This document shows positions 2,494 to 31,583 of a stretch of 31,583 nt of DNA, piece after piece. This DNA is from a virus. Location of the stretch: positions 1 to 31,583 of the IMG/VR virus record IMGVR_UViG_3300017613_000513. The stretch is one strand, 5' to 3'. A program made the position numbers and the translations under genes. Positions within the stretch are counted from its first letter, which is position 1; every line of letters begins with the position of its first letter. The notes below the pieces were generated by a model. It did not search any database. It worked only from the letters and a program-made list of their open reading frames with translations, and was not told where the DNA came from.

Positions 2494-3132
2494 ATGCTAA
2501 CCCCGGTACCTGGATCGTCAACAATATCAGGCATGAACGGCCAGGACGTTATCACGGCTGTTCGAGATCTATTAAATGAAGCAGAAGTAGGGTTTTGGAA
2601 TGATACCCAAATGCTGAAATGGATCAATGCCGGTATTGTGGATATTGTTGGTAAAACTTGGTGTATAGGTACATCCGAATCAATTACACTGGCAACCGAT
2701 ACGGTTGAGTACACTCTAACAAACAGCACGATTACCACTGTTGCAGTAGTCTACAATAGCGCAAAGGGCTTGGTTATTGGCCATCCTTCAATGCTGGGCC
2801 ATGTTCATGACGTTGCCGAGCCTGTTTATTATTACATATTTAATAATAAGTGCGGAATAATTCCTAAACCTGCAGCCGCCATTGCCGGCAATACCTGTGA
2901 AGTTTATCAAATTCCTATGCCTACAGCTATCACGGTTAGCGGTAGCGTAGTTTTACCGTCTTATTTAGATGATTGCCTGCAATATTACGTGATGTGGAAA
3001 GCCTTTTTGAAAGATGATAGGCCTGAAGAAGCTGTAGGAATGGAAAACAAGTACGGAAAAGATATCGTTGCATTCAGATCGGATTTATTGCAGCAGAAAA
3101 TGAGCGAATACGAAACTAAGGCTAAGAATTAA
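2494..3132 (+). CDS. Phage adaptor protein (SU10 adaptor-like)
   Basis: AAGGAG at 2482-2487 supports ATG 2494, giving 212 residues. After a short tail the segment MNGQDVITAVRDLLNEAE, then FWNDTQMLKWINAGIVDI, follows the pattern of podoviral adaptor proteins: an N-terminal helix pair that docks on the portal, then a beta-rich middle, then a long C-terminal helix region (LDDCLQYYVMWKAF, with DRPEEA and a Lys/Gln/Glu-rich tail). In this family the ring connects portal and nozzle. The stop codon shares one base with the start of the nozzle-like gene (TAATG), implying translational coupling. Confidence 0.7.
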   Translation: MLTPVPGSSTISGMNGQDVITAVRDLLNEAEVGFWNDTQMLKWINAGIVDIVGKTWCIGTSESITLATDTVEYTLTNSTITTVAVVYNSAKGLVIGHPSMLGHVHDVAEPVYYYIFNNKCGIIPKPAAAIAGNTCEVYQIPMPTAITVSGSVVLPSYLDDCLQYYVMWKAFLKDDRPEEAVGMENKYGKDIVAFRSDLLQQKMSEYETKAKN

Positions 3133-7977: not shown

Positions 7978-8346
7978 ATGGATTTAGAAAATAATCCCAG
8001 ATATCAAAGAGCAATTCAGATCATGAGGCGCTATAATCCCAGACAAAAGGCGATTTTTAACACGATTGCGGCTGATAGAGCGTTTGCAGCTACAGATATG
8101 GGAAAAAGAATCCAACTACTAAAAATGGGCATGGCCGAAAGGTCTGCAAAGCGTGATTTTGCGGAACGGAAAAAAGACTATAAACGTGCGAAAAAATACG
8201 GAACTATCGCTGAATTAATGGGGGTAGGCGATATCGGGTTAAAAACTTATTTTGGCACTCAGGATATAAAACATAAGGAAAGAATCGCTCAGATGATTAA
8301 TAAAGATCGTAAAAAACTTTATCCCGGGGCGAAATTGTTTTTTTAG
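7978..8346 (+). CDS. Small basic protein of unknown function, shares a motif with the next gene
   Basis: The 122-residue protein begins at ATG 7978 with AAGGAG at 7966-7971. It is strongly basic and helical (NPRYQRAIQIMRRYNPRQK; later RSAKRDFAERKKDYKRAKK). Near residues 82-93 it contains GVGDIGLKTYFG, matched by GVGNIGLQGYMG in the following gene at a similar place after a charged helix. No known domain is recognised. It opens the block of putative virion-interior proteins after the tailspike, so a minor virion or ejection-apparatus role is the best inference. Confidence 0.6.
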   Translation: MDLENNPRYQRAIQIMRRYNPRQKAIFNTIAADRAFAATDMGKRIQLLKMGMAERSAKRDFAERKKDYKRAKKYGTIAELMGVGDIGLKTYFGTQDIKHKERIAQMINKDRKKLYPGAKLFF

Positions 8347-8355
8347 AGGTATGTT

Positions 8356-9009
8356 ATGGCAACTCAATTTTCAGCAGTTACAGGCGGTCGGCGGCGCAGA
8401 ATTCCGTATATTGAAAGAATTAATGCTCAGACCCCACAATTGGCCCAAATGATCCAAGCGCAAAAAGCAAACCAACGGGCAGATCGTGAATTCGCATTTC
8501 GTGAGGATATGGCAGAGGACGCAAGGGAAAAAGAAAAACTGGCTATGATGCTGGGAGTTGGCAACATTGGCTTGCAAGGATATATGGGGTATAAAAAGAA
8601 TCAAGCTATTGAGAAATTGTTGACGCCTGAAGTCACAAAAGAAGTGGCTACTCCGGCCTTGAGTCCTGTTGGATATGGTGGGCCTGGTGGGGAACCTGGT
8701 GTAGGCGGGATTTCAACTCCAACAGGTGAAGGCGCGACTCCTGGACTTTTTTCAAAAGTAGGCGAATCCCTTACTTCCGGATCTCCATGGTTAGGCGGTC
8801 TGGCTGGTACGATAGGGTCAAAGGCGCTTGTAAAAGGCGATAATAAGTTTAAAAAAGCTGCTGTTGGTGCCGGTATTGGCGGCGCTACGTCATGGGTAGC
8901 ATCTGGAGGGTTGCAGAAACTATTAACCGGGGGCGGGTTCGGCGGTGGTGATCCATATGATACCGTTCTTGGTTCAATTTTTGGAGGGGCAGGAGGGTTA
9001 TTTATATAA
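8356..9009 (+). CDS. Glycine-rich putative virion-interior or ejection protein
   Basis: This 217-residue protein has ATG 8356 after GAGGT. The N-terminal third is charged and helical (RRRRIPYIERINAQ, then QRADREFAFREDMAEDAREK) and leads into the shared motif GVGNIGLQGYMG at residues 67-78. From about residue 95 it is Gly, Pro and Ser rich, and from about 140 it has alternating hydrophobic Gly/Ala segments (WLGGLAGTIGSKAL, AAVGAGIGGATSWVASGGL, and a final FGGAGGLFI). Such Gly/Ala stretches with amphipathic helices are common in podoviral injected proteins. The stop overlaps the next start by one base (TAATG). The role is inferred, not demonstrated. Confidence 0.55.
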   Translation: MATQFSAVTGGRRRRIPYIERINAQTPQLAQMIQAQKANQRADREFAFREDMAEDAREKEKLAMMLGVGNIGLQGYMGYKKNQAIEKLLTPEVTKEVATPALSPVGYGGPGGEPGVGGISTPTGEGATPGLFSKVGESLTSGSPWLGGLAGTIGSKALVKGDNKFKKAAVGAGIGGATSWVASGGLQKLLTGGGFGGGDPYDTVLGSIFGGAGGLFI

Positions 9010-10151
9010 TGGCATTGCCAGCGAGTAGATTCATGCGAGGCTTGTCCTCACAGTTTAAGGCGGCGTCCGGACGATTCAGACGCTATCCGATGTTGCGGTC
9101 TATGTTTTCTGGACGAGTAAGTACGGATACGGATATGCCGGTTAGCGATATGGTCGGCACACAACCTAGTAACGTCCTTGGTGGAGAAGGTGAGGTAACA
9201 GACTATACTGGTGATCTTGTTTCAGCCGGACGGCCTGAATCGCTATCTGGTTTCGCAAGGGATCTCGCTGGAAATGTTATCGGGGGTGCCGGCGTGCCGG
9301 CGGGAGTGGCTGCAGTATCGGGTGTGCCAGCAAAAGCAATTTTGAGTGCTGCACCTGAACTGGCTTTAAGTACTGCGTTAAGTCCTGTCTTGTTTGGTAA
9401 ATCTTTTGGTGACTACGCAACGGATATACATTCCGGATACACCGTTGACGAAGCTATGAAGGAAAGCGAATTAAGTGAAGCCGGTAAGATATCTGCTAAA
9501 CAGGCAGCCGAAGCCGATAGACCTAAGAGCTTATTCGGACTTGCTAAAGCTAGTTTAGGATACGGTAAGTTTGCGGGTGCATCGGCTGAAGATGCCATTG
9601 CCACTCAAAAAGCAATGGAGAAACTAAATTTAACCAACCCAGCCATTGAAGATCTTGTGACCGCTCCTAGTGGAGAAGGGGCTCAAGATTATTCTGACAC
9701 TATTGGCCGCGGGGTTTTGGCGAGTGGGGAAAGTGCCGATGTCGATGTAATGTCGGGGGCTTCGATAGAAGGGGGATCTCCCGGAATGGCTGGTGGAGAT
9801 AGCAGCGGGCTTTGTATCATAATAACCGTTTGTACGGATGCTGATTCGGGTATGATAGATATTGCCCGTAAATTTAGGGACAAGCACCTTGATGATATGA
9901 CCTTGGGCGGATATTATGCGATTGCCAAGATTGTAGTTCCGTTTTTGAAGCGTTCTGAACTGTTTAGAAAAATCACAAAAAGATTTTTGGTAAATCGTTT
10001 AATTGATTACGCCGTTGTTCATTTGTTAGTACATCCCGAATGGGATTATGGATATCGGACATCAAAATATGTAACAAAATGTTTTTTAGGTTTGTGCTCA
10101 TTGATAGGCAGGTTTGTAAATTGCCCTAAATTAATAGCGCAGCATAGATAG
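9009..10151 (+). CDS. Putative virion protein with CFI-box-like C-terminal domain
   Basis: The 380-residue protein starts on a one-base overlap with the upstream stop. Residues 1-35 are basic and amphipathic (SQFKAASGRFRRYPMLRSMF). Residues 80-130 are Gly/Ala/Val rich and hydrophobic. From residue 269 the sequence CIIITVCTDADSG, then IARKFRDKHL and GGYYAIAKIVVPFLKRSE, follows the CFI-box-CTERM layout (a CFI(A/I)TA-like box, an RRFRD-like helix, then a YY...P...hydrophobic helix). That domain is known at the C-termini of bacterial and phage proteins, with an uncertain role. Here the box reads CIIIT. Position before the coiled-coil and giant genes suggests an ejection or internal protein. Confidence 0.55.
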   Translation: MALPASRFMRGLSSQFKAASGRFRRYPMLRSMFSGRVSTDTDMPVSDMVGTQPSNVLGGEGEVTDYTGDLVSAGRPESLSGFARDLAGNVIGGAGVPAGVAAVSGVPAKAILSAAPELALSTALSPVLFGKSFGDYATDIHSGYTVDEAMKESELSEAGKISAKQAAEADRPKSLFGLAKASLGYGKFAGASAEDAIATQKAMEKLNLTNPAIEDLVTAPSGEGAQDYSDTIGRGVLASGESADVDVMSGASIEGGSPGMAGGDSSGLCIIITVCTDADSGMIDIARKFRDKHLDDMTLGGYYAIAKIVVPFLKRSELFRKITKRFLVNRLIDYAVVHLLVHPEWDYGYRTSKYVTKCFLGLCSLIGRFVNCPKLIAQHR

Positions 10152-10160
10152 GAGACTGTT

Positions 10161-11411
10161 ATGGCCAGATACGGCAACCCGGTTTTAGAACAGCTTCAAT
10201 TAATAGGCCGTACCACTGAAAGAGGTATGGAGAAAATGGGTAATGTCCCATTAGATATTGCCAATTTAAATATAAACCGGGCAAAACTTGAAGCTGAAAT
10301 TCAAAATCGCGCATCTGATTTAAGTTTAAGACGAGACCAGCTAACCGAAATGATTGCTATGCACAAAGCTACTCAGGCTGGTGCTGCTGAGACACGTGCA
10401 GAGACCGCAAGGGCAAATTTAGCAAGGGAGGCTGGTGCTGCCGAATCACGAGCAGAAGCAAGAAAAACCAGTGTAATACAACGCAAATTACAGGAACCCG
10501 CGCTTGAGGCAACTGAAAGACATATGGAACGCCTTGACAGGGATGTCACTATTCCTGAATTATCAGGTGGTAATACCTATAGAATAGGTCATTGGCTTGC
10601 TACGGGTAGCCGTGAGGATGATCAAGATACGATGATTGATGAGTTAGCTAAAGCCTTTGGCGGGGAGTATATGGCTCAGGGGAAAAATAAGGGCAAGATC
10701 GTTTTAAAAAATGGCAAAACTCTTAAAATGAGAGACTTGGATAAATATCCCGAAAAAGTACAAGCTATAATTCTTGGGAATATGAGCCCTGATAGAGCAG
10801 TACAGGATTTAAGGGATCAAATTGAAGAAGCACAAGAAAAAGGTGAGATAGATCCTCAATTACAACAAACTTTTGAAGAAAAATTACAACGAATTAAAGA
10901 ATTTCAAGATGATCCACAAGCCAGAATAACCGCACTTCAAAACCAAATTAACCAGCTTGAAATATTGGGCGGTCCCGGTATGAAAAAAGCAGTTGCCAGA
11001 ACTCAGGCTAAAATTGATGAAATTAAGGGAGCTGAATCCCAAAAAGCTGAACAGGCATTTGAACTGAAAAAGATTCAGAAAAAAGAAAGTGCCAAGGCCA
11101 AAGCGGAAGGATTATCAACTCTTGGTAAAGAAGCACGAGATATTGCAGCGATGTCAGAAGGTGCTATTACCGAAAAAGAAGCCATACAAGGTTTACAAAA
11201 AGACAGAAGGGCAGGTAGGATATTTACAGCATATGCAGCGGCGGTTAAATCGCTACCTATGGAGATAGAGATGGACCCGGAGCTTTACCCACAAAAGATT
11301 GCAGAATTAAGAGAACAATACGGTATCGATGAACTATTAGAACCATTGCCCTTTGATAAAAAAGAACCAACAGATGATCCTGATAATATACGGGAATTAT
11401 TGTTTAAATAA
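10161..11411 (+). CDS. Coiled-coil putative internal virion / ejection protein
   Basis: AGGAG at 10150-10154 precedes ATG 10161. The 416-residue product is largely alpha-helical and charged. A coiled coil spans about residues 55-130 (with repeated AAETRAETARANLAREAG-like units), and another spans about 215-345 (DLRDQIEEAQEKGEIDP, LQNQINQLEI, AQAKIDEIKGAESQ). Between them is a small globular part about residues 135-205 (GGEYMAQGKNKGKIVLKNGK). No signal peptide, membrane helix or enzyme motif is seen. The stop shares one base with the start of the 3355-residue gene. Long coiled-coil proteins directly before a giant gene are typical of podoviral internal proteins. The function is inferred from position. 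Confidence 0.55.
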   Translation: MARYGNPVLEQLQLIGRTTERGMEKMGNVPLDIANLNINRAKLEAEIQNRASDLSLRRDQLTEMIAMHKATQAGAAETRAETARANLAREAGAAESRAEARKTSVIQRKLQEPALEATERHMERLDRDVTIPELSGGNTYRIGHWLATGSREDDQDTMIDELAKAFGGEYMAQGKNKGKIVLKNGKTLKMRDLDKYPEKVQAIILGNMSPDRAVQDLRDQIEEAQEKGEIDPQLQQTFEEKLQRIKEFQDDPQARITALQNQINQLEILGGPGMKKAVARTQAKIDEIKGAESQKAEQAFELKKIQKKESAKAKAEGLSTLGKEARDIAAMSEGAITEKEAIQGLQKDRRAGRIFTAYAAAVKSLPMEIEMDPELYPQKIAELREQYGIDELLEPLPFDKKEPTDDPDNIRELLFK

Positions 11412-14400
11412 TGAGTCTACAAGATTATAGAAATAAATATCCTGAATACGACGACATCCCCGATGACGTTTTAGTTCAAGGATTATATCAAAAATACGGG
11501 GAAGCCGAAACACCCGAACATTTTTCTGCAAAGATTGGGTATGGGCCACCGGCACCGATAGTTGAACCCGAAACCACAGCAGGAGATGTCCTTAAAGCAG
11601 CTGGTAGGGGCATTATTCACGGAACGTTAGGACTGGGGGAATCAATTGGCGGGGGATTGGAGTATGCCGGGCATAGATTAGAGAATATCTCTGATATTTC
11701 AGAACAACGACCTGATATTGCATGGAGTATGATGACTCCGGTACAACAAGCGGAGTCAGCAAAATTAAATGAAAAATATTTAAAGGTGGGTCTTACTGAA
11801 GAAGAAGCCCGGAATCGATCGATTCACGATATTTGGAGAAAAGATAAAGCAGCCCGAAAGGATATAGGTAAAACTATCTCCCAGATGGGTAAAGTAACGG
11901 CAAAGTATTGGGGATCTAAAGCCGAAAGATTTGAAACCGCAGAACATCTCAAAGGTAAGAAAGTCACTCGTAACCCTGAAATATTACTTGATCCTCAGTG
12001 GTGGGCTTATGGAGTGGGGGATTTAGTTCCGACTTTAGTTGCAACGGTCATACCGGGTGCAGTTGCTTATAAGGGCCTTAAAGCGGCTGGTATCGCAGCT
12101 AATATGACTCCTGAATTCGCAGCGGGATTAGCCCGGGTGGGTGCCTTGGTGACTGGCGGTGCGGCTGGTGGTGCGCTTGAAGGTTCGGCTACCTACAGGA
12201 TGGTGTTAGAAGATACCGAAAACGAGCAAGAGGCCGCCCGAGCTGCAGAGGGTATGTTTCTTTTAGCTGGTGGTTTGAATGCTCTTTCGGTAGGTAAATT
12301 TTTGGCAAAAGCAGGGCCGGGATTTAAAGGTAAAATAATCAAAGGCCTTGGGGCCGGTGCATGGGAGGGTTTAACCGAAGGTCTTGAAGAACCCGCAGAA
12401 GTTACCAGCCTAATCGCGAGTAAAATCTTGACTGGTCAGCCAGTACAAGAAAACATAGCTCAGATGTTTCTTGAATCCATTGAGGACGGTCTCACAGTAG
12501 CCCCGCTTGCCGCTGTTACCGGCCTTGCTGGTGGGGGTGCCGGTGGTCAACAAGCGCAAATTGCTGAAACCACTGAAGAAGATGTTATTTGGGATGAATA
12601 CGAAAAATCTAAGAAAGAAACCCCTTTGGGTGATGATAAATTAGCCCAGGATATTCTTGAAAAAATAGCCGCTGGTGGTTTACCCCAATCTATTAATAAA
12701 CGCTTTGTAGCGCAGCAGGCAGAAGCCTTAACAAAAGTTCCTGCTTTACCTGCTGGGCAGGGTTTTCAGGTTAAAGAACCTTTTGTATCGGTTAATGATC
12801 CTATTTATCAAAGACGGATAGAAAACCAAAGAATACTTGATGACCCGAAAACGGCTGTTTTGGCAGAAATTGAACAGAACGAAGCTGTCAGAGAAGTTTT
12901 AAAGAAGGAGGCAGAAAAGCGGCGAAGGGATTTTGTTGCAAAAGACTTAGTGAAACCGTGGGGCGAACGTGAACGGCAATTAGCGAAAAAGATTCAATTA
13001 GAATACGGAAAAGGATACAAAGCCGACATTGATCGATTAAAAAAACTGGTATCAGATCGCAAATTTTGGGAAAATGAAGCCGTAAGGTTGGGTATCTTAG
13101 ATAAAGAAACAATTGCGGAGCCTCCCGTACTTCCTGAAACCTCAGAAATAGACGCCCTTTCAGACGAAGAAAGAGCCCGGCTTGTATTACCTAAAGCAAC
13201 GGATGAAGAAATAATTAAAACCGCAGAAGCGGCAAAGAAAGTTCGTGACGATCTTGCGGCAAAAGCCGAACCCGAGGTTGAAGCCGTTAAAGAAGCAGAC
13301 TACAAACTAACCGGATCACAAAAACTATCCGAATGGGTAGCTGCTGAGATAAGTAAGCGTCATTATACTAAACCAATTACATGGAAAAATCTTTTTAATG
13401 CAGCGGATAAAGCCTTTGGTGGCACGCAGGCTGAAGGTGCTTATGTTGGACGAGATGCTTATGATGCCATGGAGATGGGTGTTAACCAGCGTATTTTAGA
13501 TAGCTTAGTAATTGATACACAAGAAAATATTCAGCAGGCAGATAAGGTGATTAAGGTTCTAAAAGAAGAAATCACGTTATTACCCACACAAACCAAAAGA
13601 ACCAAAGAACAGCAAGAATATCAACAGTTTTCTACTCCCCCGCCATTGGCATATATCGCTAATTGGGCGGCTAACATTAAAATAGGTGAGTCTTATTTAG
13701 AACCATCGGCCGGGACCGGCGGACTTGCTGTATTTGGTAAAATGGCCGGTGCAGAAGTCCAGGTAAACGAACTATCCCCCCGGCGTGCTGCATTGCTAAA
13801 AACATTTTTTAAAGACGTGTTTACCGAAGACGCCGAGCAACTTGACAATATTTTACCCGATGATGTCAAACCTACTGTAATTGTAATGAATCCCCCGTTT
13901 TCCGCAACTGCTGGGCGGGTGGCGAAAAACGCGAGTAAATACGGTGCTCGTCATATTGAACAAGCTTTAAACAGATTAGAACCTGGCGGCCGATTGGTGG
14001 CGATAGTCGGCAAAGGTATGTCCGATACAGCCCCGAAGTTTAAACCCTGGTGGGCTAAAATTAGAAAGAAATATACGGTTAAGGCAAATATCGGTATATC
14101 CGGTAAGGAATATAAGAAATACGGCACAACTTTTGATAATCGGCTACTAGTTATTGACAAAACAGGCCCAAGTGAGTATAATACGGTAGTTGGAAATGTT
14201 TTGGTAGTTGAGGATCTAATTCCGAAATTAAGGGAGGTCCGAGATGACCGAATCTATGTTAGCACAACTCAACCGGCTAAACAGCCGACCCCATCACCGC
14301 CACGCGGCGAAACTCCTTCAGAAGCTGAAGGTATCCCCACAAAAGCACCTGTTGCACCAGTTTCAACTGCTGGAATTGATGATCGAGGAAGAACACCTGA

Positions 14401-17400
14401 TACCGGAGTCCCATTTGTCGAGCCTGTTCTGGGAGATCAAGGACGGCGACCCGGACAAACTGGAATCATTTCCGAATTGGGAGAGGGTGAGCCTTTTGAA
14501 CACCCCATTGGCCCAGGCCGAGGAACTGTTAGAGGAACTCAACGGTCAGTACCAGGAGCGGAACCTGTAGATATTGATTCGCTTATTGATGAAGTGGGCG
14601 AGGAAATAGGCTACAAACAACCTACCAAACAAGCAAAACCATCACTCAAAAAAGCTGCAAAACACGTTGCAAAAGGTACAGGCAAAGGACTTGACGCTGT
14701 TGCCGATTTGATCAAGGGACTTACCGAGGAAGGCCAAGTCGGCGGTCAATTAATGCACCCCGAAGTCTATGCCCAGGCGAAGCAAGGTTTTTCCGAATCT
14801 TATCAGGAGTATATAAAAGCCGGAAATGAATTGCGTGATTGGGTAAAGTACGCTCTTGTTGAGTTGAAAAATAAAGGGGCAAACTTTGATGTTGCTAAGA
14901 ATTGGGTATCCCATTTCTATAAAAATGACCTACCACAAGAATTACCGATAGGTAAGACCAAAGAACTTCAATACACTCAATCAAAACGGGCTGTAGAGGG
15001 CGAAATTTCTGATAGTCTATATAACAGCTACACCCCCCAGGTGAAAATCGCAGGAGCGAAGCCTCACCCCACCCCCCTGGCGCAATCGGCGGCTATGGCA
15101 GATACCAATGCACCCCCGGCTACATACACCCCAATGTTACCGGAAGGACCAATCAAAGAAGGTCTTATATCAGACGTTCAACTGGAAGCTGTTATAGCTG
15201 CCGGTCAAGCCCATGAACAAAAACTAGTTGCGTTAGAAAAAGAAGCACCAAAACGAAAAGGCTTTTTTATAGGCGACGGTACTGGCGTGGGCAAAGGCAG
15301 GGAAATTTCAGCTATTATGTGGGATAATTGGAACCGAGGCCGTAAAAAAGCTATTTGGATTTCAGAAAGCGCAAAATTAATTGATGATGCGAAACGCGAC
15401 CTTATTGATGTTGGCTGGAAAGAAGGTGCTGAAAAGATTTTTTCAATTAATAAAACAAAATTAGGTCAAAAAGTTACAAATAAAGAAGGTATCCTATTTT
15501 CGACATATGCCACTATGCGTGGCGGGTTTAATCAAATCCGTACCGATAACGAGGACACCTTACAAAATATGCGAATTCGTTTGAATCAAATTCGTGAATG
15601 GTTCGGAAAAGACTATGACGGAGTTATTGCATGGGATGAAAGCCATAATATGGCTAATGCAATAGCTCAGCGGGGTGTCCGCGGGGTTAAAAAGCCGTCT
15701 CAACAAGCCATTGCCGGCATTATGCTACAGCAAGAAATGTTACCTAATTCTAGGGTACTCTATGTATCTGCAACCGGTGCCACAGAAGTTTCAAATTTTG
15801 CGTATGTTCCGAGGTTAGGACTTTGGGGACCGGGTACCGCATTTGAAAAACAAGGTAAATTTATTGAAAAAGTTACATCTGGTGGCCTTGCCGGTATGGA
15901 AATGGTAGCCCGTGATATGAAAGCCATGGGTCTTTATACTGCCCGATCTCTTTCTTACGATGGCGTTGAATATCGCAGATTAGAACATCCGCTTACTGAC
16001 AATCAGAAATCCGCTTACGACGAGTTATCAAGTGTGTGGCAGCTTGTTTTAGGTAATATTAACACAGCTTTGGATCAAACAGAAGGTAAGCACAACTGGT
16101 CTGCTTTTTGGAATGGGCACCAACGATTTTTTGAAGCTGTTGTAACTTCATTTCAAATGCCGTCTGCTTTAAATGATATGGAAAAGCAAATTGCAGATGG
16201 TAATTCGGTTGTGATTCAGCTTACAAAAACAGGTGATGCACAAACCAAACGGGTTTTAGAACGCAAACAAGAAGGTCAGGAAATTGAGGATCTTGACTTT
16301 ACGCCCCGGGAACAACTGATTGATTATGTCAGAAATCATTTTCCGGTTCAACAATTTGAGGAATACGAAGACGAGGAAGGTAAAAAACGGATTCGCCCTG
16401 TTTTGGATTCTACTGGTGAACCAGTTTTAAATAAAGAAGCGGTCAAGATGCGTGAATCTCTGATTGCAAGGCTATCTTCTATCAAAGTTCCAGCGTCTCC
16501 CCTTGATATTATAGTCCAACATTTTGGTCAAGACAAAGTCGCAGAAGTGACTGGTAGGTCCCGTAGAGCGATCTTTAATAAAGAAGGTGAGCTTGTTATT
16601 GAAAAACGCACCGATAAAATGACATCGCAGGATGCTGATGCTTTTATGGACGATGAAAAACCAATTCTTGTCTTCAGCCAGAAAGGTGGTACTGGCCGGA
16701 GTTATCACTCCGATATGAGAGTCAAGAACCAAAGACGTAGGATTCATTATCTTGCACAACCGGGCTGGAGAGCGGATAAGGCTATTCAGGGGCTTGGCCG
16801 CACTCATAGATCGAATCAGGCGTCAGAACCGGAATATGTTCTTTTAACAACTGACCTGCAGGGTCAGAAGCGTTTTATTTCATCTATTGCCCGAAGACTT
16901 GATCAGCTGGGGGCGCTTACCAAGGGCCAACGACAAACAGGGTCACAGGGTATCTTCCAGGCCCGGGACAACCTTGAAAGCGGATATGCGAGAAACGCTT
17001 TAGGTAGATTCTGGGATCAACTTTTGGCTGATGAAATAGAAGATCTTGATGTCACAACATACCAAAACCAGGCTGGGTTGAAATTATTGGACGCGGAAGG
17101 CGAGGTCAAAGAGAATATGCCGGGAATGAAGCAGTTTTTAAACCGGTTGCTTTCTATGAATATTAAGTATCAAAACATTGCTTTTAATAAATTATCTGAC
17201 AATCTGGATGATATTATCCAGGAAGCTGCTGAACGAGGTACCCTAGATGTTGGTATTGAAACCATTACCGGCGACTCCATTAAAAAAACTTCTGAACAAA
17301 CGGTTTATACAGATGAGACAACCGGAGCTGAAACAAAATATGTCACATTAGATATTACCAATCCCGCTAATAATTTGTCATTTGAGGACTCAAAACAATA

Positions 17401-20400
17401 TTATTTCCAGAAAAAAAATCCTGTTTGGTATCAGAATATAAAATCTTCAAGGATATGGGTAGCATCCGATATAAGGGAACGAACAACAAGAGAAGGAGAT
17501 ATTGAGGCCTACCATACTTTAAAGGGTGCAGGTCCGTCTTCCCTGCAAAGAGTAAGTGCTGAAGATCTAAAATCAGATAAATGGGAGAAAATGACCGAAT
17601 CCCGAGCAAAAGAAATATGGGATACCGAATTTAAAAATCTTCCTGAAACTGTTACAAATACAGAGCATGTTATAACTGGTACTCTGTTACCTATTTGGGA
17701 TAGGCTTATCGGAAAAGCTACGGTCTACCGTATGCAGACTGATGAAGGCCAGAGGATTTTAGGTCGTAGGATATCTCCTAATAATTTAGGACAAACACTT
17801 AAAAATTTAGGCGTAGGTCGTGAAAAAGTTGAAATGACAGGTCAAGTTATTGCTGATAAAGTGATTAACGAAAAAGCGACTGTCCGGCTGGCTAATAAAT
17901 GGCGTTTTAAAAGATCAAAGGTTTCAGGTGAATACAGAATTGAACTTGTCGGACCGGACTATTACACACAAGATGAAGTGGTTCAAGCTGGTGGTTATGA
18001 TGAAGTTGTAAATTTTAGCACTCGTTTTTTTATTCCGATAAAAGATGCCGGCAACATAATTGATAAACTAATTAAACACAGGGAAATTGTTTCAGTTCAA
18101 GGCGGGTACACCGGGCCGTCTTTGACAGACCGTGTTGACCGTATTAAAAACGGTCTTGGAAACGAAAGAGGTTCTTTTTCATGGGCGAAATCAGAAAACA
18201 CTCCGTTAGGTGAGGATCTTCTCGAAGTCGGCAGGGATCTTATCTCACAAGGCCATACAACCTATTCCAAATGGAGGCTTGAACTTAAAAAGTTGCTTTC
18301 CGAATACTGGAATAAAATAAAATTGGCAGCTTACCATATTTACAAGGCAGCTAAAAGACCTTTAGTGAGCCAACGTGGTGAAGTAACCCTGCGTGAAGCG
18401 AAAAAAGAACCCGAAATCCAGGAAACCAAAAAAGATTTAACGGAATACGCCTCTGAAGCAGCAGATTATGCTAAATCAATTTTCGATAAGCGAAAAAAGG
18501 GCTGGAAAAAAGAACGCCCGGATACCACTGTTACCGATAGAATTATTTCAACCCTATCTCACCATGCCGAAAAAGTTCCAGCCCTCCAAAGGGTGGTGAA
18601 TGCGGGGCTTGACTGGATGGATAATAAACATCGTTTATCTACTGATATGCTTACTTCTAAAGATGATGAATCCTATGTCAAAATCATGGATACATATCGT
18701 AAGCAGGACAGGCAGGAATTCAAACGATGGAAAAGGTATATTATAAAACGAGACCGGAATAAAACAGGATATTCCGTTAAAAAAGAAGACGATACATTTA
18801 AGATTTATGATTCGGTCGGCCAGCATGTTGATACGCAAAAAACTGAAGACAAGGCGTGGGGACAGGCCGTAAAGCTCGAAGCGGAAGACTTCAAGAAAGC
18901 AGGTTTCTCCGATCAGGCGACAGACGCCCTGATAGCTTATCGATCAACCGCACACAACACCTATCATATGCTATCAGCGGGTATGGAAAACTTAATCACT
19001 AAATACAAAGAACAAGGCAAGAAATTACCCGATATAGCTGTTAGGCAGGGCGGGGATACCGTTACTGTCAATTTGGAAGTCGCTTTAAAAATGATGGGCG
19101 ATATGCGTGGATATTACATGCCGCGATTGAGACGATCCGGGCAGTATAGATTAATTGCCACCAAAAAAGGCGCAAGTCCCTATTTACAATTCTTTGACAC
19201 TAAAACAGGTATTAATATCCGTCATGCCCAATTAGAAAAGCAGGGATATAAGGTTGAGAAAGAAACTTCAAAATCTATGCCGGAGGTCGTATTTGAATTA
19301 GCGGGTAGAACTATCGGAAGTCAGCAAGTTGTAAATCAAGCCCTTGAAAACATTGGTCAAAAATCAGCAGGTAATTTATCAGAATTCGGGTTATCAACAG
19401 ATTGGGAAAAATACAAGGATGAGGATCATTTTGTGGTCCGTGGCGCATATACTTCTGAAATGCGGAAGGCGTTTGAATCGTTAGGAGGCAGGTGGTATGC
19501 CACAGGAAAAGAGACAAAAGCGTGGCATTTTGCGAATGCCCCTGCTAATATTGAAGATCAGATAGTCAGAAGAATCCATGAGGTAAAAGGTATTGATCCT
19601 GATATAGAACTGCTTTTTTCCGGGGCATTGATTCAAAACGTGGCTGATATCTGGAGAGCAAGGGGAGCCCGGTCCCGTATGATAAAAAGGGGATTGGCTA
19701 CAGGTGAAGATGTATGGTTAGGATATGAGGAAGATCCTATTATAGCTGTTGTGAAATCAGCCCACGGGATAGCCGGTGCTCAAGCCAAGCACCAAATGGC
19801 ACTTGATATGTTAAAAGCTATCGCCGGAACTGATATATCTTGGAAGACATGGAAGACTTGGCAACAGGAAGAAGGTGTTGAAAAACCTGACTATAAAGAT
19901 TATTTGAAATTCGTGAAGGCCCGAAGGATAGAGGCAGCATCCCAAAAGAACGCATTTTTAGAAGCCACCACTTATTTCAAGGATATGATGCGTAATGAAG
20001 AGGCAATTGACCGGCTTGTAGGGACATTAAAAGGCGTCGCGGTCTTAAAATATTTAGGTGGTAGGGTTTCAGCCCCGCTGGTGAATTTAACAGCACTTGT
20101 GACTTCTGTACCAGCTGGTATGAAAGGTTATGCTAATATTCCTTTAAGGTCAGCAATGAAATATGTCGGTAAGGGATCTGAGGCTTACTACAAATACCGG
20201 TGGGGCGATAAAAATAAACTGGACAAATGGACATTAAAAGCTCTTGAGGATTCTGATAAGAACGGCTGGCACCATGCACAGTACAATATGGAGGCACTAT
20301 CTGTTCTGCAGGCCAAACTCGGCAGAGGTTGGAATAAGGCTCTTGAATACTCAATGTTAATGTTCGGTGAAACTGAAAGACTAAACAGGGTTTCTACCAT

Positions 20401-21478
20401 TATTGGCTCATATATGGGTATTAAAGCGCAGCATAAGGAACAATGGAACGAATCAGATCATCAGCTAGCCTTGCAATTAGCTAAAAAAGTTTCGGATCGG
20501 TCCCATGGAGTTTACGGAAAAGCGAATCTCCCTCATTTTGCAAGGGGCTCTAACATTGCGGCTCAAGTTGCTCGATCATTTTATGTTTTTAGAACATTTT
20601 CGCATAATTACTTACTGACCATGAGAGACCTTGGATTTAATAAAAAACAGCGAACAGCAGCTTTATATATGGCACTTTCACCAGCCCTTTTTGCGGGAAT
20701 CGGCGCGAGTGTGCTTACTCCTATCATAAACATGGTGCTGAAAAAACTATTTGACCAAGACGATCCAGAAGAAGCTATGTATGAATTTTTAGAACAGGAA
20801 TTTGGATCATTCACAAGCAATTTAGCCAGATATGGTATATTTGGTATGGGTGGGTACGGTGTTTCCTTGAAGGGCTCCCTTGCTATCGGAATCACGGATT
20901 TACCTACATCTATAGCGGATATTTTAGGCGCGCCCGGAAGCGTTATCGGGGATGTTTATAAAGGTGGTAGGGCTATCACACAAGGGGATTTTGCGAAAGG
21001 AACTGAAAAAATAGCCCCATCCTTCATTGGATCTATGGTTAGAGGATGGCGGGAATACTCAGAAGGACTAAGTACCAGAACTAACGCCCCTATATTTTAT
21101 GGGGTGAAACAGGCTCGACCGACATTTCTTGAGTCGGCTTTTAGGTTTTTATCATTTAATCCAGCTGGTGTAGCTGAAATTACTGAAAAACGATGGAAAG
21201 AATTCAAGGTCGAAGGAAAATATAGGGAACGCCGCACACAAATTTACTCAAAAATCAGCCGATATTTTCTTAAACCTACCGCAAAGCGTAGCCAGGGGGA
21301 ATGGGCTGATATTTTACTTGAAATCAGAGAATACAACGAAAGAATAAGACGCAAGAAATTAATTGGTATAATGCCGATAATAACCAAAGAGTCTATTAAA
21401 GCCAATTTGAAGCGAAAATTCAGACCAAGAAAAAAAGAAATCAGAAGACGCTATAAATCAAAATACAAGGGAGATTAA
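11411..21478 (+). CDS. Giant polyvalent protein: N6-adenine methyltransferase plus Strawberry-notch helicase, DarB-like
   Basis: This 3355-residue ORF is translationally coupled to the gene before it. Visible parts in order are as follows. Residues 1-45 are a YPEYDDIPDD-type N-terminus. Residues 55-375 are Gly/Ala-rich and hydrophobic. Residues 745-940 form an N6-adenine methyltransferase with motif I EPSAGTGG (764-771) and catalytic NPPF (827-830). Residues 951-1051 are a Pro/Gly-rich linker. The Strawberry-notch helicase follows, with Walker A GDGTGVGKG (1288-1296), DESH (1409-1412), SATGATE (1453-1459) and QGLGRTHRSNQ (1793-1803). A DarB-like conserved region follows to about 2240. A GGRW...KAWHF module lies at 2692-2707. 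The C-terminal region has FGETERLNR (2985-2993), a hydrophobic helix near 3083-3114 and a very basic tail. P1 DarB, a virion-carried antirestriction protein, has a methyltransferase plus helicase. Placement among internal virion genes suggests packaging and injection. Catalytic motifs look intact; the function is inferred. Confidence 0.85.
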   Translation: MSLQDYRNKYPEYDDIPDDVLVQGLYQKYGEAETPEHFSAKIGYGPPAPIVEPETTAGDVLKAAGRGIIHGTLGLGESIGGGLEYAGHRLENISDISEQRPDIAWSMMTPVQQAESAKLNEKYLKVGLTEEEARNRSIHDIWRKDKAARKDIGKTISQMGKVTAKYWGSKAERFETAEHLKGKKVTRNPEILLDPQWWAYGVGDLVPTLVATVIPGAVAYKGLKAAGIAANMTPEFAAGLARVGALVTGGAAGGALEGSATYRMVLEDTENEQEAARAAEGMFLLAGGLNALSVGKFLAKAGPGFKGKIIKGLGAGAWEGLTEGLEEPAEVTSLIASKILTGQPVQENIAQMFLESIEDGLTVAPLAAVTGLAGGGAGGQQAQIAETTEEDVIWDEYEKSKKETPLGDDKLAQDILEKIAAGGLPQSINKRFVAQQAEALTKVPALPAGQGFQVKEPFVSVNDPIYQRRIENQRILDDPKTAVLAEIEQNEAVREVLKKEAEKRRRDFVAKDLVKPWGERERQLAKKIQLEYGKGYKADIDRLKKLVSDRKFWENEAVRLGILDKETIAEPPVLPETSEIDALSDEERARLVLPKATDEEIIKTAEAAKKVRDDLAAKAEPEVEAVKEADYKLTGSQKLSEWVAAEISKRHYTKPITWKNLFNAADKAFGGTQAEGAYVGRDAYDAMEMGVNQRILDSLVIDTQENIQQADKVIKVLKEEITLLPTQTKRTKEQQEYQQFSTPPPLAYIANWAANIKIGESYLEPSAGTGGLAVFGKMAGAEVQVNELSPRRAALLKTFFKDVFTEDAEQLDNILPDDVKPTVIVMNPPFSATAGRVAKNASKYGARHIEQALNRLEPGGRLVAIVGKGMSDTAPKFKPWWAKIRKKYTVKANIGISGKEYKKYGTTFDNRLLVIDKTGPSEYNTVVGNVLVVEDLIPKLREVRDDRIYVSTTQPAKQPTPSPPRGETPSEAEGIPTKAPVAPVSTAGIDDRGRTPDTGVPFVEPVLGDQGRRPGQTGIISELGEGEPFEHPIGPGRGTVRGTQRSVPGAEPVDIDSLIDEVGEEIGYKQPTKQAKPSLKKAAKHVAKGTGKGLDAVADLIKGLTEEGQVGGQLMHPEVYAQAKQGFSESYQEYIKAGNELRDWVKYALVELKNKGANFDVAKNWVSHFYKNDLPQELPIGKTKELQYTQSKRAVEGEISDSLYNSYTPQVKIAGAKPHPTPLAQSAAMADTNAPPATYTPMLPEGPIKEGLISDVQLEAVIAAGQAHEQKLVALEKEAPKRKGFFIGDGTGVGKGREISAIMWDNWNRGRKKAIWISESAKLIDDAKRDLIDVGWKEGAEKIFSINKTKLGQKVTNKEGILFSTYATMRGGFNQIRTDNEDTLQNMRIRLNQIREWFGKDYDGVIAWDESHNMANAIAQRGVRGVKKPSQQAIAGIMLQQEMLPNSRVLYVSATGATEVSNFAYVPRLGLWGPGTAFEKQGKFIEKVTSGGLAGMEMVARDMKAMGLYTARSLSYDGVEYRRLEHPLTDNQKSAYDELSSVWQLVLGNINTALDQTEGKHNWSAFWNGHQRFFEAVVTSFQMPSALNDMEKQIADGNSVVIQLTKTGDAQTKRVLERKQEGQEIEDLDFTPREQLIDYVRNHFPVQQFEEYEDEEGKKRIRPVLDSTGEPVLNKEAVKMRESLIARLSSIKVPASPLDIIVQHFGQDKVAEVTGRSRRAIFNKEGELVIEKRTDKMTSQDADAFMDDEKPILVFSQKGGTGRSYHSDMRVKNQRRRIHYLAQPGWRADKAIQGLGRTHRSNQASEPEYVLLTTDLQGQKRFISSIARRLDQLGALTKGQRQTGSQGIFQARDNLESGYARNALGRFWDQLLADEIEDLDVTTYQNQAGLKLLDAEGEVKENMPGMKQFLNRLLSMNIKYQNIAFNKLSDNLDDIIQEAAERGTLDVGIETITGDSIKKTSEQTVYTDETTGAETKYVTLDITNPANNLSFEDSKQYYFQKKNPVWYQNIKSSRIWVASDIRERTTREGDIEAYHTLKGAGPSSLQRVSAEDLKSDKWEKMTESRAKEIWDTEFKNLPETVTNTEHVITGTLLPIWDRLIGKATVYRMQTDEGQRILGRRISPNNLGQTLKNLGVGREKVEMTGQVIADKVINEKATVRLANKWRFKRSKVSGEYRIELVGPDYYTQDEVVQAGGYDEVVNFSTRFFIPIKDAGNIIDKLIKHREIVSVQGGYTGPSLTDRVDRIKNGLGNERGSFSWAKSENTPLGEDLLEVGRDLISQGHTTYSKWRLELKKLLSEYWNKIKLAAYHIYKAAKRPLVSQRGEVTLREAKKEPEIQETKKDLTEYASEAADYAKSIFDKRKKGWKKERPDTTVTDRIISTLSHHAEKVPALQRVVNAGLDWMDNKHRLSTDMLTSKDDESYVKIMDTYRKQDRQEFKRWKRYIIKRDRNKTGYSVKKEDDTFKIYDSVGQHVDTQKTEDKAWGQAVKLEAEDFKKAGFSDQATDALIAYRSTAHNTYHMLSAGMENLITKYKEQGKKLPDIAVRQGGDTVTVNLEVALKMMGDMRGYYMPRLRRSGQYRLIATKKGASPYLQFFDTKTGINIRHAQLEKQGYKVEKETSKSMPEVVFELAGRTIGSQQVVNQALENIGQKSAGNLSEFGLSTDWEKYKDEDHFVVRGAYTSEMRKAFESLGGRWYATGKETKAWHFANAPANIEDQIVRRIHEVKGIDPDIELLFSGALIQNVADIWRARGARSRMIKRGLATGEDVWLGYEEDPIIAVVKSAHGIAGAQAKHQMALDMLKAIAGTDISWKTWKTWQQEEGVEKPDYKDYLKFVKARRIEAASQKNAFLEATTYFKDMMRNEEAIDRLVGTLKGVAVLKYLGGRVSAPLVNLTALVTSVPAGMKGYANIPLRSAMKYVGKGSEAYYKYRWGDKNKLDKWTLKALEDSDKNGWHHAQYNMEALSVLQAKLGRGWNKALEYSMLMFGETERLNRVSTIIGSYMGIKAQHKEQWNESDHQLALQLAKKVSDRSHGVYGKANLPHFARGSNIAAQVARSFYVFRTFSHNYLLTMRDLGFNKKQRTAALYMALSPALFAGIGASVLTPIINMVLKKLFDQDDPEEAMYEFLEQEFGSFTSNLARYGIFGMGGYGVSLKGSLAIGITDLPTSIADILGAPGSVIGDVYKGGRAITQGDFAKGTEKIAPSFIGSMVRGWREYSEGLSTRTNAPIFYGVKQARPTFLESAFRFLSFNPAGVAEITEKRWKEFKVEGKYRERRTQIYSKISRYFLKPTAKRSQGEWADILLEIREYNERIRRKKLIGIMPIITKESIKANLKRKFRPRKKEIRRRYKSKYKGD
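14244..14570 (+). CDS. Possible overlapping gene in the +1 frame inside the giant ORF linker
   Basis: A 108-codon frame, +1 relative to the giant gene, starts at ATG 14244. A strong AGGGAGG Shine-Dalgarno sits at 14231-14237, right after an in-frame TAA at 14229-14231. It exactly covers the Pro/Gly-rich, apparently disordered linker of the giant protein. Its own product looks more protein-like: Leu-rich helices (HAAKLLQKLKV, HQFQLLELMIEEEHL) and a C-terminus with LFWEIKDGDPDKLESF and QAEELLEELNGQYQ. By eye its codons in the 3' half are rich in G/C third positions, unlike neighbouring genes. It may be an overprinted gene or a captured coding fragment now read out of frame. No family is recognised. 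Confidence 0.3.
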   Translation: MTESMLAQLNRLNSRPHHRHAAKLLQKLKVSPQKHLLHQFQLLELMIEEEHLIPESHLSSLFWEIKDGDPDKLESFPNWERVSLLNTPLAQAEELLEELNGQYQERNL

Positions 21479-26523: not shown

Positions 26524-27309
26524 ATGAAAAAAATATTAATGACATTATGTATCTTGACTCTATGCTCTTCGTCGTTTGCCGGTGGAATTACAGAAAAACT
26601 AAAGGCCGTTGTTGGGCGGCAATCGGTAGAGGAGGCAGCAGGTTATGATTACATAACTTTTTTCTGGCGAACTGAAGGCGAAACATTAGGGGATGACGAT
26701 TATTCTGATGGGGACACAACCGCAACAATTCAGGGAACTATAGCTATTAATAGTACCCAGGTTAAAGTAGGTACCAATTCAATTGATCTTTTTACGATGT
26801 GGGGAAGGTACGAATTTGATATATCTTCTAGTGATATACTTAGTGGATCGGAATGTAGAATCGGATTTTGGCTTTACATGGATGGTGATGATGATTCTGT
26901 TAGGTTTATTCATGCCGAAGACGGCACCGATTCTAGTGATTATTTTGACATAGAGCGCGCTTCAAGTAGTGGCGAGGTTCGACTTGATTGGAAAATAGAT
27001 GGTGGTACTGTAGTTATTGCGACAACAGACGCCAACATGTCTGAAGATACGTGGTATTGGATTGAAGTATATTGGAATTCGGCTACTCCGACAAGGCAGG
27101 TGCATATATTTGACGACTCCAGTAATGAACAAGGATCAGGAGCAACTAATTCGAGTTCATTCACCACTATCGCATTTGCAACAGGTACTTTACAAATAGG
27201 AAATGCGATTGGCGTAACTCCTAATTATAATTTAGATAATATAATTTTTAGCAATGACTCTTCTCAGAGTTTATATGCAATTCGGAATGAAACAGTGTCA
27301 CCACGGTGA
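26524..27309 (+). CDS. Secreted LamG/concanavalin A-like protein
   Basis: ATG 26524 follows GAGGAT one base after the previous stop. Residues 1-19 (MKKILMTLCILTLCSSSFA) form a signal peptide with probable cleavage before GG. Cys in the h-region does not fit a lipobox. From about residue 40 the 261-residue product follows the LamG/ConA-like lectin layout: FFWRTEGE with a SDGDTTATI-type strand, VKVGTNSIDLF, then SECRIGFWLYMDGD, a VRFIHAEDGTDSSDYFDIE strand, DTWYWIEVYWN, and a final NYNLDNIIFSNDSS. This jelly-roll fold usually binds glycans. Position after the fibre-like gene suggests a related adhesin or surface protein. No hydrolase residues are identified. Confidence 0.65.
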   Translation: MKKILMTLCILTLCSSSFAGGITEKLKAVVGRQSVEEAAGYDYITFFWRTEGETLGDDDYSDGDTTATIQGTIAINSTQVKVGTNSIDLFTMWGRYEFDISSSDILSGSECRIGFWLYMDGDDDSVRFIHAEDGTDSSDYFDIERASSSGEVRLDWKIDGGTVVIATTDANMSEDTWYWIEVYWNSATPTRQVHIFDDSSNEQGSGATNSSSFTTIAFATGTLQIGNAIGVTPNYNLDNIIFSNDSSQSLYAIRNETVSPR

Positions 27310-27652: not shown

Positions 27653-28090
27653 ATGCAAGAAAGACGGTTACAAAAAATACTCTTCCACGGGCCTAATCGC
27701 AGACAATCAGGTCTTGAAAAGTTGCGTGAATTGACTAAGAATTTACCGCCCTTAGTCGTTAAAAGCAAAGAAGGCAAAGAAGTGGTTTACGGCTCTGAAG
27801 AAGGATCATATTATGGATACGGGATTTTCAAAGATGACGAGGTTGCCGTCCAAAGGGTATTTATGGCAAAGGGAGAGAAAATTCCTGAGCACGCTCATCG
27901 TGAAAAAGAGTTTGGTGTTGTTTATAAAGGTGGGGTGCGTGTGAAGTATGGGGGTAAAGAGAAAGATTACTATAGATCAGATTGGATGATTTTTGAGCCT
28001 AACGAACTGCATAGCGGAGTGATCCTTGAAAATTGTTGGATGATTCTTTTGACTATTCCACCTGCGGAGGATTATCCTGATGACAAATAA
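27653..28090 (+). CDS. Single-domain cupin protein
   Basis: The 145-residue protein starts at ATG 27653 after a weak AGGAAA. Residues about 70-135 carry both cupin motifs. Motif 1 is GEKIPEHAHREKEFGVVYKG, with His-x-His, Glu and the closing Gly in the standard spacing. Motif 2 is FEPNELHSGVILEN, with Pro, His and Asn. The metal ligands (two His and a Glu in motif 1, a His in motif 2) therefore look intact. The N-terminal 60 residues are basic (RRLQKILFHGPNRRQ). Cupins range from isomerases to small-molecule sensors, so the substrate is unknown. It overlaps the holin-like gene by 11 bases, so it is probably part of the late operon. Confidence 0.7.
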   Translation: MQERRLQKILFHGPNRRQSGLEKLRELTKNLPPLVVKSKEGKEVVYGSEEGSYYGYGIFKDDEVAVQRVFMAKGEKIPEHAHREKEFGVVYKGGVRVKYGGKEKDYYRSDWMIFEPNELHSGVILENCWMILLTIPPAEDYPDDK

Positions 28091-30795: not shown

Positions 30796-31317
30796 TTACG
30801 CAAATTGTAAATATTGATTAACAATTTCATTCAACATGATACCTGATTGTTTTTCTTCTGTCATATTGTCCCATTGATCTTTTGAAATATCATTAGGTCG
30901 TTTAGGTTCTAAAGTGTTTTTGTAAACGTTTTTAATAAGTATATCAATTGTTTTAGAATAGAGATCTTCAAATTCTCCCTGCTGCATTTTAGCAAAACTA
31001 ATCGATCTTGCTTCTATTCTGGATGTCTTATCTAACCTAATAACAAGATCAAAATATCCAGCCAAAATAGCAATGTCTTTTCTAAACCTTTCAAAGTTTT
31101 TTTCAGGAGTACCATATTTTGAATTAATTTCTCCGGGCTCCCAATTATCAAATCCAATGTTAAGCAAAGCAAAATATTTACGGTGAAAAGCAGGGTTGCG
31201 ATATTCTTTAAAATCAGCATGAACATGGTTACCAAACTTAATCTTATTGTACCATTTTTGACTGTCTGGGTCAGTCGGTAATAAGCCGGATAAGGTTTTA
31301 CTTAACACCACTTCCAT
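30796..31317 (-). CDS. DUF1367-like phage protein
   Basis: I choose ATG at 31317, with GAGG at suitable spacing, over an in-frame GTG at 31329. The product is 173 residues. Characteristic stretches of the DUF1367 family are visible: SGLLPTDPDSQKWYNKIKFG, then EYRNPAFHRKYFALLNIGF, ERFRKDIAILAG and ARSISFAKMQQGEFEDLYSK. The family occurs in lambdoid and related phages between recombination and replication genes. Its biochemical role is not established. The start lies within the end of the exonuclease gene (20-base overlap), indicating one operon. Confidence 0.7.
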   Translation of the reverse strand: MEVVLSKTLSGLLPTDPDSQKWYNKIKFGNHVHADFKEYRNPAFHRKYFALLNIGFDNWEPGEINSKYGTPEKNFERFRKDIAILAGYFDLVIRLDKTSRIEARSISFAKMQQGEFEDLYSKTIDILIKNVYKNTLEPKRPNDISKDQWDNMTEEKQSGIMLNEIVNQYLQFA

Positions 31318-31583
31318 TTTTAACCTCACTAAGTAAATAAAACATATCCTTTATAAATTTATCTACACCCTCATTGAGTTCTTTGATTTCCTTCTCGTCA
31401 CGCTCGACCCGAACCACAATCAAGGGGTATATATCCTTTATAAATGGGCAATACATAACATAATCGCACCATTCTCTTTCCGATATTCCGAGCCCGTATT
31501 GCATTTGTCTGCGCCTGTCAGTGGAGATATTACCGTTATCTCTCATGGCTACAAAGGTTGAAGGAATAGCGCATTTAATTTCA
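31298..31583 (-). CDS. C-terminal part of YqaJ / lambda-exonuclease-type nuclease
   Basis: The frame runs off the right edge, so the start is not in the window; about 94 residues are visible. The first codons read EIKCAIPSTF, giving the E-x-K of the PD-(D/E)XK catalytic core. They are followed by a QMQYGLGISEREWCDYV segment where lambda-type exonucleases have a conserved Gln-containing helix and Trp, then a strand with YPLIVVRVERDEKEI and a C-terminal helix. This is the pattern of YqaJ-like viral recombinases, which resect double-strand ends 5'-3' for a single-strand annealing partner. The partner is not visible here and would be expected outside the window. Confidence 0.7.
   Translation of the reverse strand, partial: EIKCAIPSTFVAMRDNGNISTDRRRQMQYGLGISEREWCDYVMYCPFIKDIYPLIVVRVERDEKEIKELNEGVDKFIKDMFYLLSEVKNGSGVK

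Follow-up and report, generated by a model that had tools for sequence, protein, structure and literature searches.

A 44-residue N-terminal leader, which in the DNA analysed here opens a giant protein combining a predicted adenine methyltransferase with a predicted Strawberry-notch helicase, is a portable element that starts otherwise unrelated last-slot proteins, and in related phages it is near-obligatorily paired with a short C-terminal tail on the protein encoded just upstream. Both the leader and its pairing with the tail are newly described here. The DNA in question, hereafter the window, is a 31,583-base IMG/VR virus record that gave no match, near or distant, when compared as DNA with isolate phages. 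The enzyme families of the giant, the fold of its methyltransferase, its gene slot, the leader and the tail–leader pairing were all established by computation. The features on which the argument draws are listed below.

2494–3132, plus strand: SU10-type podoviral head–tail adaptor (PF24175, E=7e-15)
8356–9009, plus strand: Gly-rich 217-aa protein, candidate gp14-like ejection protein (by position, size and 19% Gly)
9009–10151, plus strand: 380-aa protein with a weak CFI-box-like C-terminus (NF041770, 17.9 bits)
10161–11411, plus strand: 416-aa gp15-like-slot protein, carrier of the tail (A/E/K/R/Q/L-rich, helical composition)
11373–11393, plus strand: C-terminal tail DDPDNIR, a degenerate NDPLGIR, of the 416-aa protein
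11411–21478, plus strand: giant polyvalent protein gene (single ATG frame, 3355 aa)
11411–11542, plus strand: N-terminal leader, giant residues 1–44 (MSLQDYRNKYPEYDDIPDDVLVQGLYQKYGEAETPEHFSAKIGY)
11861–12760, plus strand: Gly/Ala-rich hydrophobic region, giant residues about 151–450, strongest at 201–223
13328–14290, plus strand: predicted N6-adenine methyltransferase, residues about 640–960 (STPP, EPSAGTGG, NPPF)
15062–16024, plus strand: predicted Strawberry-notch helicase, first half (AAA_34), residues 1218–1538 (Pfam E=8.6e-107)
16499–17263, plus strand: predicted Strawberry-notch Helicase_C_4, residues 1697–1951 (Pfam E=1.2e-88)
19937–21370, plus strand: PLxRFG / tail-700 domain, giant residues 2843–3320 (NCBIfam)
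20657–20743, plus strand: hydrophobic, membrane-helix-like segment, giant residues 3083–3111
21356–21475, plus strand: basic C-terminal tail of the giant, last 40 residues, net +13

Ahead of the giant, genes of the window encode proteins of 217, 380 and 416 aa, and the stop of the last of these overlaps the start of the giant gene; medium-sized genes likewise precede the giant in relatives and isolates. An SU10-type adaptor was found in 30 of 50 related records, always on the giant's strand (30/30) and upstream of it in 26 of the 30, at a median distance of 16 kb, and the remaining four maps could be circularly permuted. The giant gene comes last, behind the gp14- and gp15-like genes, and is the largest; its product has the C-terminal hydrophobic helix and basic end of a gp16-like protein. 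We conclude that it occupies the T7 gp16 slot of a gp14–gp15–gp16-like ejection operon, in which the 217-aa protein may be the gp14-like member. The initial annotation had proposed that the giant stands in place of the podoviral ejection protein and had called for a comparison of gene order; the last-slot position is indeed kept in related phages and the leader is common to other podoviral last-slot proteins, both of which support the proposal. Its further suggestion, that a CFI-box protein and a coiled-coil protein may form an export apparatus for the giant, fared less well. The CFI-box label of the 9009–10151 product falls away, its 17.9 bits lying under the NCBIfam cut-off of 40, and the upstream neighbour of 416 aa is now re-read as the gp15-slot, tail-bearing protein. 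The 380-aa protein itself has a homologue in the same place in one relative (G033_9 of G033, E=3e-19).

Several other genes of the window deserve mention in their own right. The 122-aa (7978–8346) and 217-aa (8356–9009) proteins share a 48-residue stretch with 35% identity (E=4e-5), a likeness that suggests partial duplication. At the end of the late block, positions 26524–27309 encode a 261-aa protein that seems to carry a signal peptide (MKKILMTLCILTLCSSSFAGG) and has weak family matches only; a cupin-domain protein (27653–28090, E=9e-8) follows the late block, and the minus strand encodes a NinB recombination mediator at 30796–31329 (E=3e-42).

The leader has the consensus YPQYNDxSDxxLADxLHxKFYSD. 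An HMM built without the window recognized the window leader over residues 1–43 with 39 bits (E=3e-14), and tblastn matched it to Vibrio phage FGH (E=4e-5). The window copy is divergent and lacks the YYSD core, having YGEAE instead. The leader gave no Pfam match in the window, and it is known to PHROGs as the N-terminus of phrog_10691. The same element also starts the last-slot proteins of Vibrio phage FGH (2634 aa), Thalassomonas phage BA3 (2631 aa), Ruegeria phage 45A6 (3912 aa) and Pelagibacter phage HTVC106P (927 aa). Methyltransferase motifs were found in the FGH and BA3 proteins and LPD38 in those of FGH and 45A6, the latter with helicase matches too; the HTVC106P protein showed no methyltransferase motifs, LPD38 or helicase matches.

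A leader-motif scan of viral contigs returned at least 119 stretches (L169–L287). Among the matches listed, 79 of 80 had E<1e-3, and in every ORF whose 5' end is complete the leader was strictly N-terminal, its motif never lying more than 33 codons from the upstream stop (76/76). The bodies that follow it range from 485 to 3912 aa as last-slot proteins and fall into at least 19 clusters without detectable BLASTP similarity to one another. From position 54 onwards, one such body finds its matches in proteins of other phages, and the leader taken alone matches different phages; since body and leader of a single protein point to different sets of phages, leader and cargo recombine independently. 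None of 48 leader records contained a contractile sheath, for which the control did match, and an SU10-type adaptor was present in 18 of the 48. The T7-type portal PF12236 was absent from all 48 and equally from the control, which makes this particular result uninformative. For Shewanella phage X14, a podoviral morphology has been documented (PMC9011153). Leader-like matches in a crAss-like phage (E=8, internal to a gene) and in ICP2 and Edwardsiella phage GF-2 (E about 1) were discarded as due to chance or as unproven. On contig IMGVR_UViG_3300042987_000727, a leader-like sequence lies at a protein C-terminus (L228, residue 478 of 509), and the same contig holds an ordinary N-terminal leader gene (L222).

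Proteins encoded just upstream of leader genes come in many sizes and end in NDPLGIR or a close variant. The strict tail pattern was present in 56 of 74 of these proteins, compared with 0 of 907 other ORFs at the same loci. With a tail matrix built without the window but trained on leader-locus tails, and 3135 C-termini as background, the tail exceeded the 99th background percentile at 109 of 110 leader-selected loci (60/61 when non-redundant). The search was also run in reverse: scanning DNA for the tail with TAA after it yielded 69 new loci (L292–L360), and in 64 of them the next gene starts with the leader. Of the five exceptions, three fall in frames too short to count as genes, and the other two have weak leader matches. 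In the window, the upstream protein ends in DDPDNIRELLFK, and DPxx[ILV]R occurs within the last 25 residues of only one of 18 ORFs, the 416-aa protein. Its DDPDNIR tail is degenerate, scoring 12.9 on the matrix, a value reached by 0.4% of the 3135 background C-termini (p about 0.004), and resembles that of L182 (NDPADIRQFIN); both members of the pair are present in the window. In Ruegeria phage 45A6 (L167) the frame abutting the leader ends in NDPLGLR, and the annotated upstream gene is in another frame; a sequencing frameshift or annotation error at 12434–14000 of this locus is probable. Covariation between tail and leader reached a best z of 5.6, for tail I/L with leader column 5, which is suggestive and confounded by ancestry. 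Leader strength and tail strength were not correlated (Spearman -0.18, p=0.08). The tail and leader strings gave no match in the papers searched, which is weak evidence of novelty as short peptides are seldom printed.

We then consider what the leader carries in the window. The initial annotation had described, from the letters alone, an uninterrupted frame of about 10 kb with hydrophobic Gly/Ala ends, a very basic C-terminus, and the catalytic motifs of an N6-adenine methyltransferase and a Strawberry-notch-type helicase, and all of this was borne out. The 3355-aa frame at 11411–21478 (plus strand) encodes a protein of 374.8 kDa with a pI of 8.9, as computed from the ORF. Every motif named was present with sensible spacing: EPSAGTGG at residue 764 and NPPF at 827 in the methyltransferase, and Walker A GDGTGVGKGR at 1288, DESH at 1409, SAT at 1453 and QGLGRTHRSNQ at 1793 in the helicase. 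Hydrophobic stretches were seen at about 151–450 and at 3083–3111, and the net charge of +13 over the last 40 residues compares with 0.5 ± 2.9 for random 40-residue stretches (family tails).

The methyltransferase assignment draws on PHROG DNA methyltransferase families (8e-13) and the PADLOC model mad2 (2e-12), and STPP, EPSAGxGG and NPPF are kept in 37 aligned relatives, with most motif residues invariant. The fold of METHYLTRANSFERASE was modelled with AlphaFold2 over giant residues 560–1080 and has a confident core (281 residues with pLDDT ≥90); its best PDB matches are type I restriction–modification HsdM chains (7eew with E=1e-10, 2okc, PacII and EcoKI), with M.TaqI-type adenine methyltransferases lower in the list. 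By motif order and the Rossmann fold of the model, the domain is a predicted N6-adenine, HsdM-like methyltransferase. The helicase combines AAA_34 and Helicase_C_4 with Walker A, DExH and motif VI, and is by these matches a Strawberry-notch SF2 enzyme. The model and the decisive Pfam matches leave both catalytic regions in the fold classes first proposed for them.

The PLxRFG/tail-700 match reached 115 bits against an NCBIfam cut-off of 100, and the same region also matches phrog_11358 (PHROG, E=2e-31); the predicted model of the C-terminal 1126 aa was poor (pLDDT 52). As regards similarity to T7/P22 gp16, a sequence search of the PDB gave no match. Neither a transglycosylase (SLT) domain nor an HExxH metallopeptidase, common in polyvalent proteins, was found in the giant, and none of the LPD models matched the window itself. 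Homology of LPD38 to the PLxRFG region, expected from their like layout, was dropped at an hhalign probability of only 0.4. With a methyltransferase, an SF2 helicase and a PLxRFG region in one long polypeptide, encoded among virion genes with the SU10 adaptor (2494–3132) upstream on the same strand, the giant falls into an established class, that of the polyvalent DNA-protection proteins (Iyer et al. 2017).

A search for related loci with the window proteins alone found nothing, and for that reason viral contigs were scanned with a degenerate form of the helicase motif QGLGRTHRSNQ, which gathered 59 loci. Nearly all lie in ORFs of great length that can be aligned with the window across methyltransferase and helicase, with roughly 32–54% identity in their helicase stretches. 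In the pooled set, at least 52 giants of uncultivated phages cover the methyltransferase and Strawberry-notch helicase with motifs kept; because so many share this core, these giants form a subfamily and the window protein is not a singleton. Whole frames in the relatives' records are mostly 2300–5600 aa, and the regions after the helicase measure 790–1840 aa in the complete cases. These regions carry LPD38 in 15 of 33 and PLxRFG in 10, and some C-termini also carry RadC, PBECR3, ART-PolyVal and LPD3/23/37/39, assignments that by domain matching place them in the polyvalent-protein vocabulary (PMC5512222). Of the Strawberry-notch giants retrieved, those of the window and L061 are the only ones with the leader, which is thus not needed for this cargo class. 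The protein upstream of the L061 giant ends in ...NSDPLGILN, and the tail was found upstream of none of 17 leader-less giants (Strawberry-notch and other). Among isolated phages, the only Strawberry-notch-type case found is a distant one, the 5391-aa protein of Bacteroides phage BS-TP4, whose gene adjoins the portal gene.

The enzyme pair extends well beyond phages. The methyltransferase–helicase query matched 756 plasmid records, 117 of them over at least 80% of its length, and 350 of the 756 are predicted conjugative. Methylomonas has a 9.7-kb gene with the same enzyme pair adjoining conjugation genes, and Agrobacterium a 4.3-kb gene. In prokaryote genomes the pair falls into three size classes: about 1500 aa with short ends, 2400–3000 aa with a C-terminal extension, and a phage-type class with about 500–2100 aa before the core and 860–1850 aa after it. 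As versions of about 1500 aa without long extensions occur on plasmids and chromosomes, the pair is not by itself virion-specific. The phage giant looks like a mobile DNA-protection pair set within virion-protein extensions.

The simplest explanation for tail and leader is that they bind each other, since they are conserved together on consecutive, otherwise unrelated proteins. We regard as more likely than not a general plug-and-socket arrangement in which a C-terminal NDPLGIR peptide of the gp15-slot protein binds the 40-residue leader and many uncultivated short-tailed phages swap their injected proteins; the swappable cargo would run from pilot proteins of about 500 aa up to giant methyltransferase–helicases, all using one docking interface. 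For the window itself, the reading that we favour, and consider fairly probable, is that the giant is the last and largest ejection protein, docked via tail and leader, injected, and protecting the genome by N6-methylation. The 416-aa gp15-slot protein would dock by its C-terminal DPxxIR tail onto the 44-residue leader; the docked giant would be built into the virion interior and leave with the ejection complex. At infection, its hydrophobic segments and basic tail may help bring it to the cytoplasmic mouth of the channel, where the Strawberry-notch ATPase could track along the entering duplex as the methyltransferase N6-methylates its adenines, hiding the genome from restriction. Physical docking, packaging, injection, a coupling between the two enzymes and the resulting protection against restriction are what we infer from the arrangement described above.

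The pairing could instead be a translation effect in which the tail codons hold the ribosome-binding site of the next gene, as the two genes abut or overlap, with GGA/AGA/AGG codons immediately ahead of the start. We find this highly improbable. All six tail codons vary synonymously, and selection therefore acts on the tail peptide rather than on a ribosome site; moreover, the tail is often separated from the stop by at least one residue, is confined to its place among the ORFs of the same loci, with 0 of 907 others carrying it, and a ribosome site would not conserve the protein sequence of a downstream leader.

It is also conceivable, and in our view unlikely, that the giant is not packaged at all and acts late inside the cell, modifying progeny DNA or combating rival elements, its place in the late operon being due to chance. 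Packaging is indeed deduced indirectly, and the same enzyme pair exists as free proteins on plasmids and chromosomes. However, the leader, the slot, the basic tail and the tail–leader pairing are common to podoviral last-slot proteins, and the analogous JC1 gp69 is proven to be in virions (PMC9144972). Somewhat more unlikely still is that the giant, virion-borne and injected, is chiefly an entry motor, a translocase that pulls the genome in with the methyltransferase secondary. Enzymes of the SF2/SNF2 type do translocate on duplex DNA (PMC5512222), and gp16-slot proteins lie at the cytoplasmic mouth of the channel (PMC8954989), but methyltransferase and helicase are retained together as the core of 52 giants and also in plasmid and chromosomal proteins about 1500 aa long, for which no such motor is needed, and this speaks for a modification role; moreover, leader proteins of other phages fill the slot without a detectable helicase.

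If the tail–leader pair does serve as a docking interface, phages could exchange the last-slot protein without redesigning the ejection complex. The pair would be a reciprocal short signature of proteins that short-tailed phages may load and inject, and would allow injected effectors to be read straight from metagenomes. The question of ejection-protein recruitment and mosaicism becomes a simple peptide-binding test.

A packaged methyltransferase–helicase giant is already a known kind of protein, given the precedents of podovirus JC1 gp69 and P1 DarB. Mass spectrometry of CsCl-purified JC1 virions detected gp69, a DarB-like protein of 4515 aa, along with gp67 and gp68, whose genes immediately precede that of gp69 (PMC9144972). 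Like the window giant, gp69 is a giant with a methyltransferase followed by an SF2 helicase, encoded by the last gene of the virion block, and, as in the DarB-like giants of Bcep22/JC1 podoviruses, this last gene follows those of two virion-associated proteins. Our domain scan of gp69 gave SLT, an Eco57I-type methyltransferase, an SNF2-like helicase, LPD3 and LPD38. Between the two, gp69 is set apart by its N-terminal transglycosylase, SNF2-like helicase, HEAFH zincin-type site and LPD38; the window giant combines a Strawberry-notch helicase with a PLxRFG tail and the leader, and contains neither HExxH nor SLT. Only the methyltransferases of the two align, weakly (E=0.006); a likeness of the Gly/Ala-rich region to JC1 in an iterated search was set aside as open to composition bias. 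Membership of the window giant in the DarB family proper was rejected, since its helicase is of the Strawberry-notch branch and gp69, a close homologue of Bcep22 gp75, aligns with it at the methyltransferase alone and not over its full length.

P1 DarB, of about 250 kDa, has an N-terminal signal that directs it into the capsid; for a reporter, the first 30 residues of DarB are enough (PMC9024508). It shares with the window giant a methyltransferase and a helicase, is believed to be injected, and has an N-terminal capsid-targeting segment; it differs in belonging to a myovirus, in its length of about 2000 aa and in its packaging partners DarA, Hdf, DdrB and Ulx, and no P1 record was among the leader matches. 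The DarB analogy drawn in the initial annotation is supported as to the way of working, which has a podovirus precedent in JC1 gp69 and for the window giant would mean virion packaging and shielding of the injected DNA against type I restriction; it fails for descent, as by sequence comparison the window giant is a Strawberry-notch variant and an orthologue of neither protein. To the few experimentally supported injected DNA-protection proteins it would add a Strawberry-notch branch that is common in uncultivated phages. Iyer et al. 2017 noted the pairing of adenine methyltransferase and Strawberry-notch helicase in a few cases (PMC5512222), compared with the 52 phage giants and 756 plasmid records found here. 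Their polyvalent proteins have LPD-type domains, as do the relatives of the window giant, and a description of the leader–tail pair was not found for them (PMC5512222).

The T7/P22 gp14–gp15–gp16 proteins resemble the window in gene order, in having the largest protein in the last slot, and in the C-terminal hydrophobic segment and basic end of that protein. Homologues of gp16, of 609–1337 aa, keep C-terminal membrane helices, and in T7 infectivity depends on the basic C-terminal residues of gp16 (PMC8954989). Unlike the window giant, these homologues are not mentioned in the review as having a methyltransferase or a helicase (PMC8954989). In T7, the N-terminal tape of gp16 binds and stabilizes the C-terminal domain of gp15 (PMC8954989), and this contact, between the C-terminus of gp15 and the N-terminus of gp16, falls at the very places where the window carries the tail and the leader.
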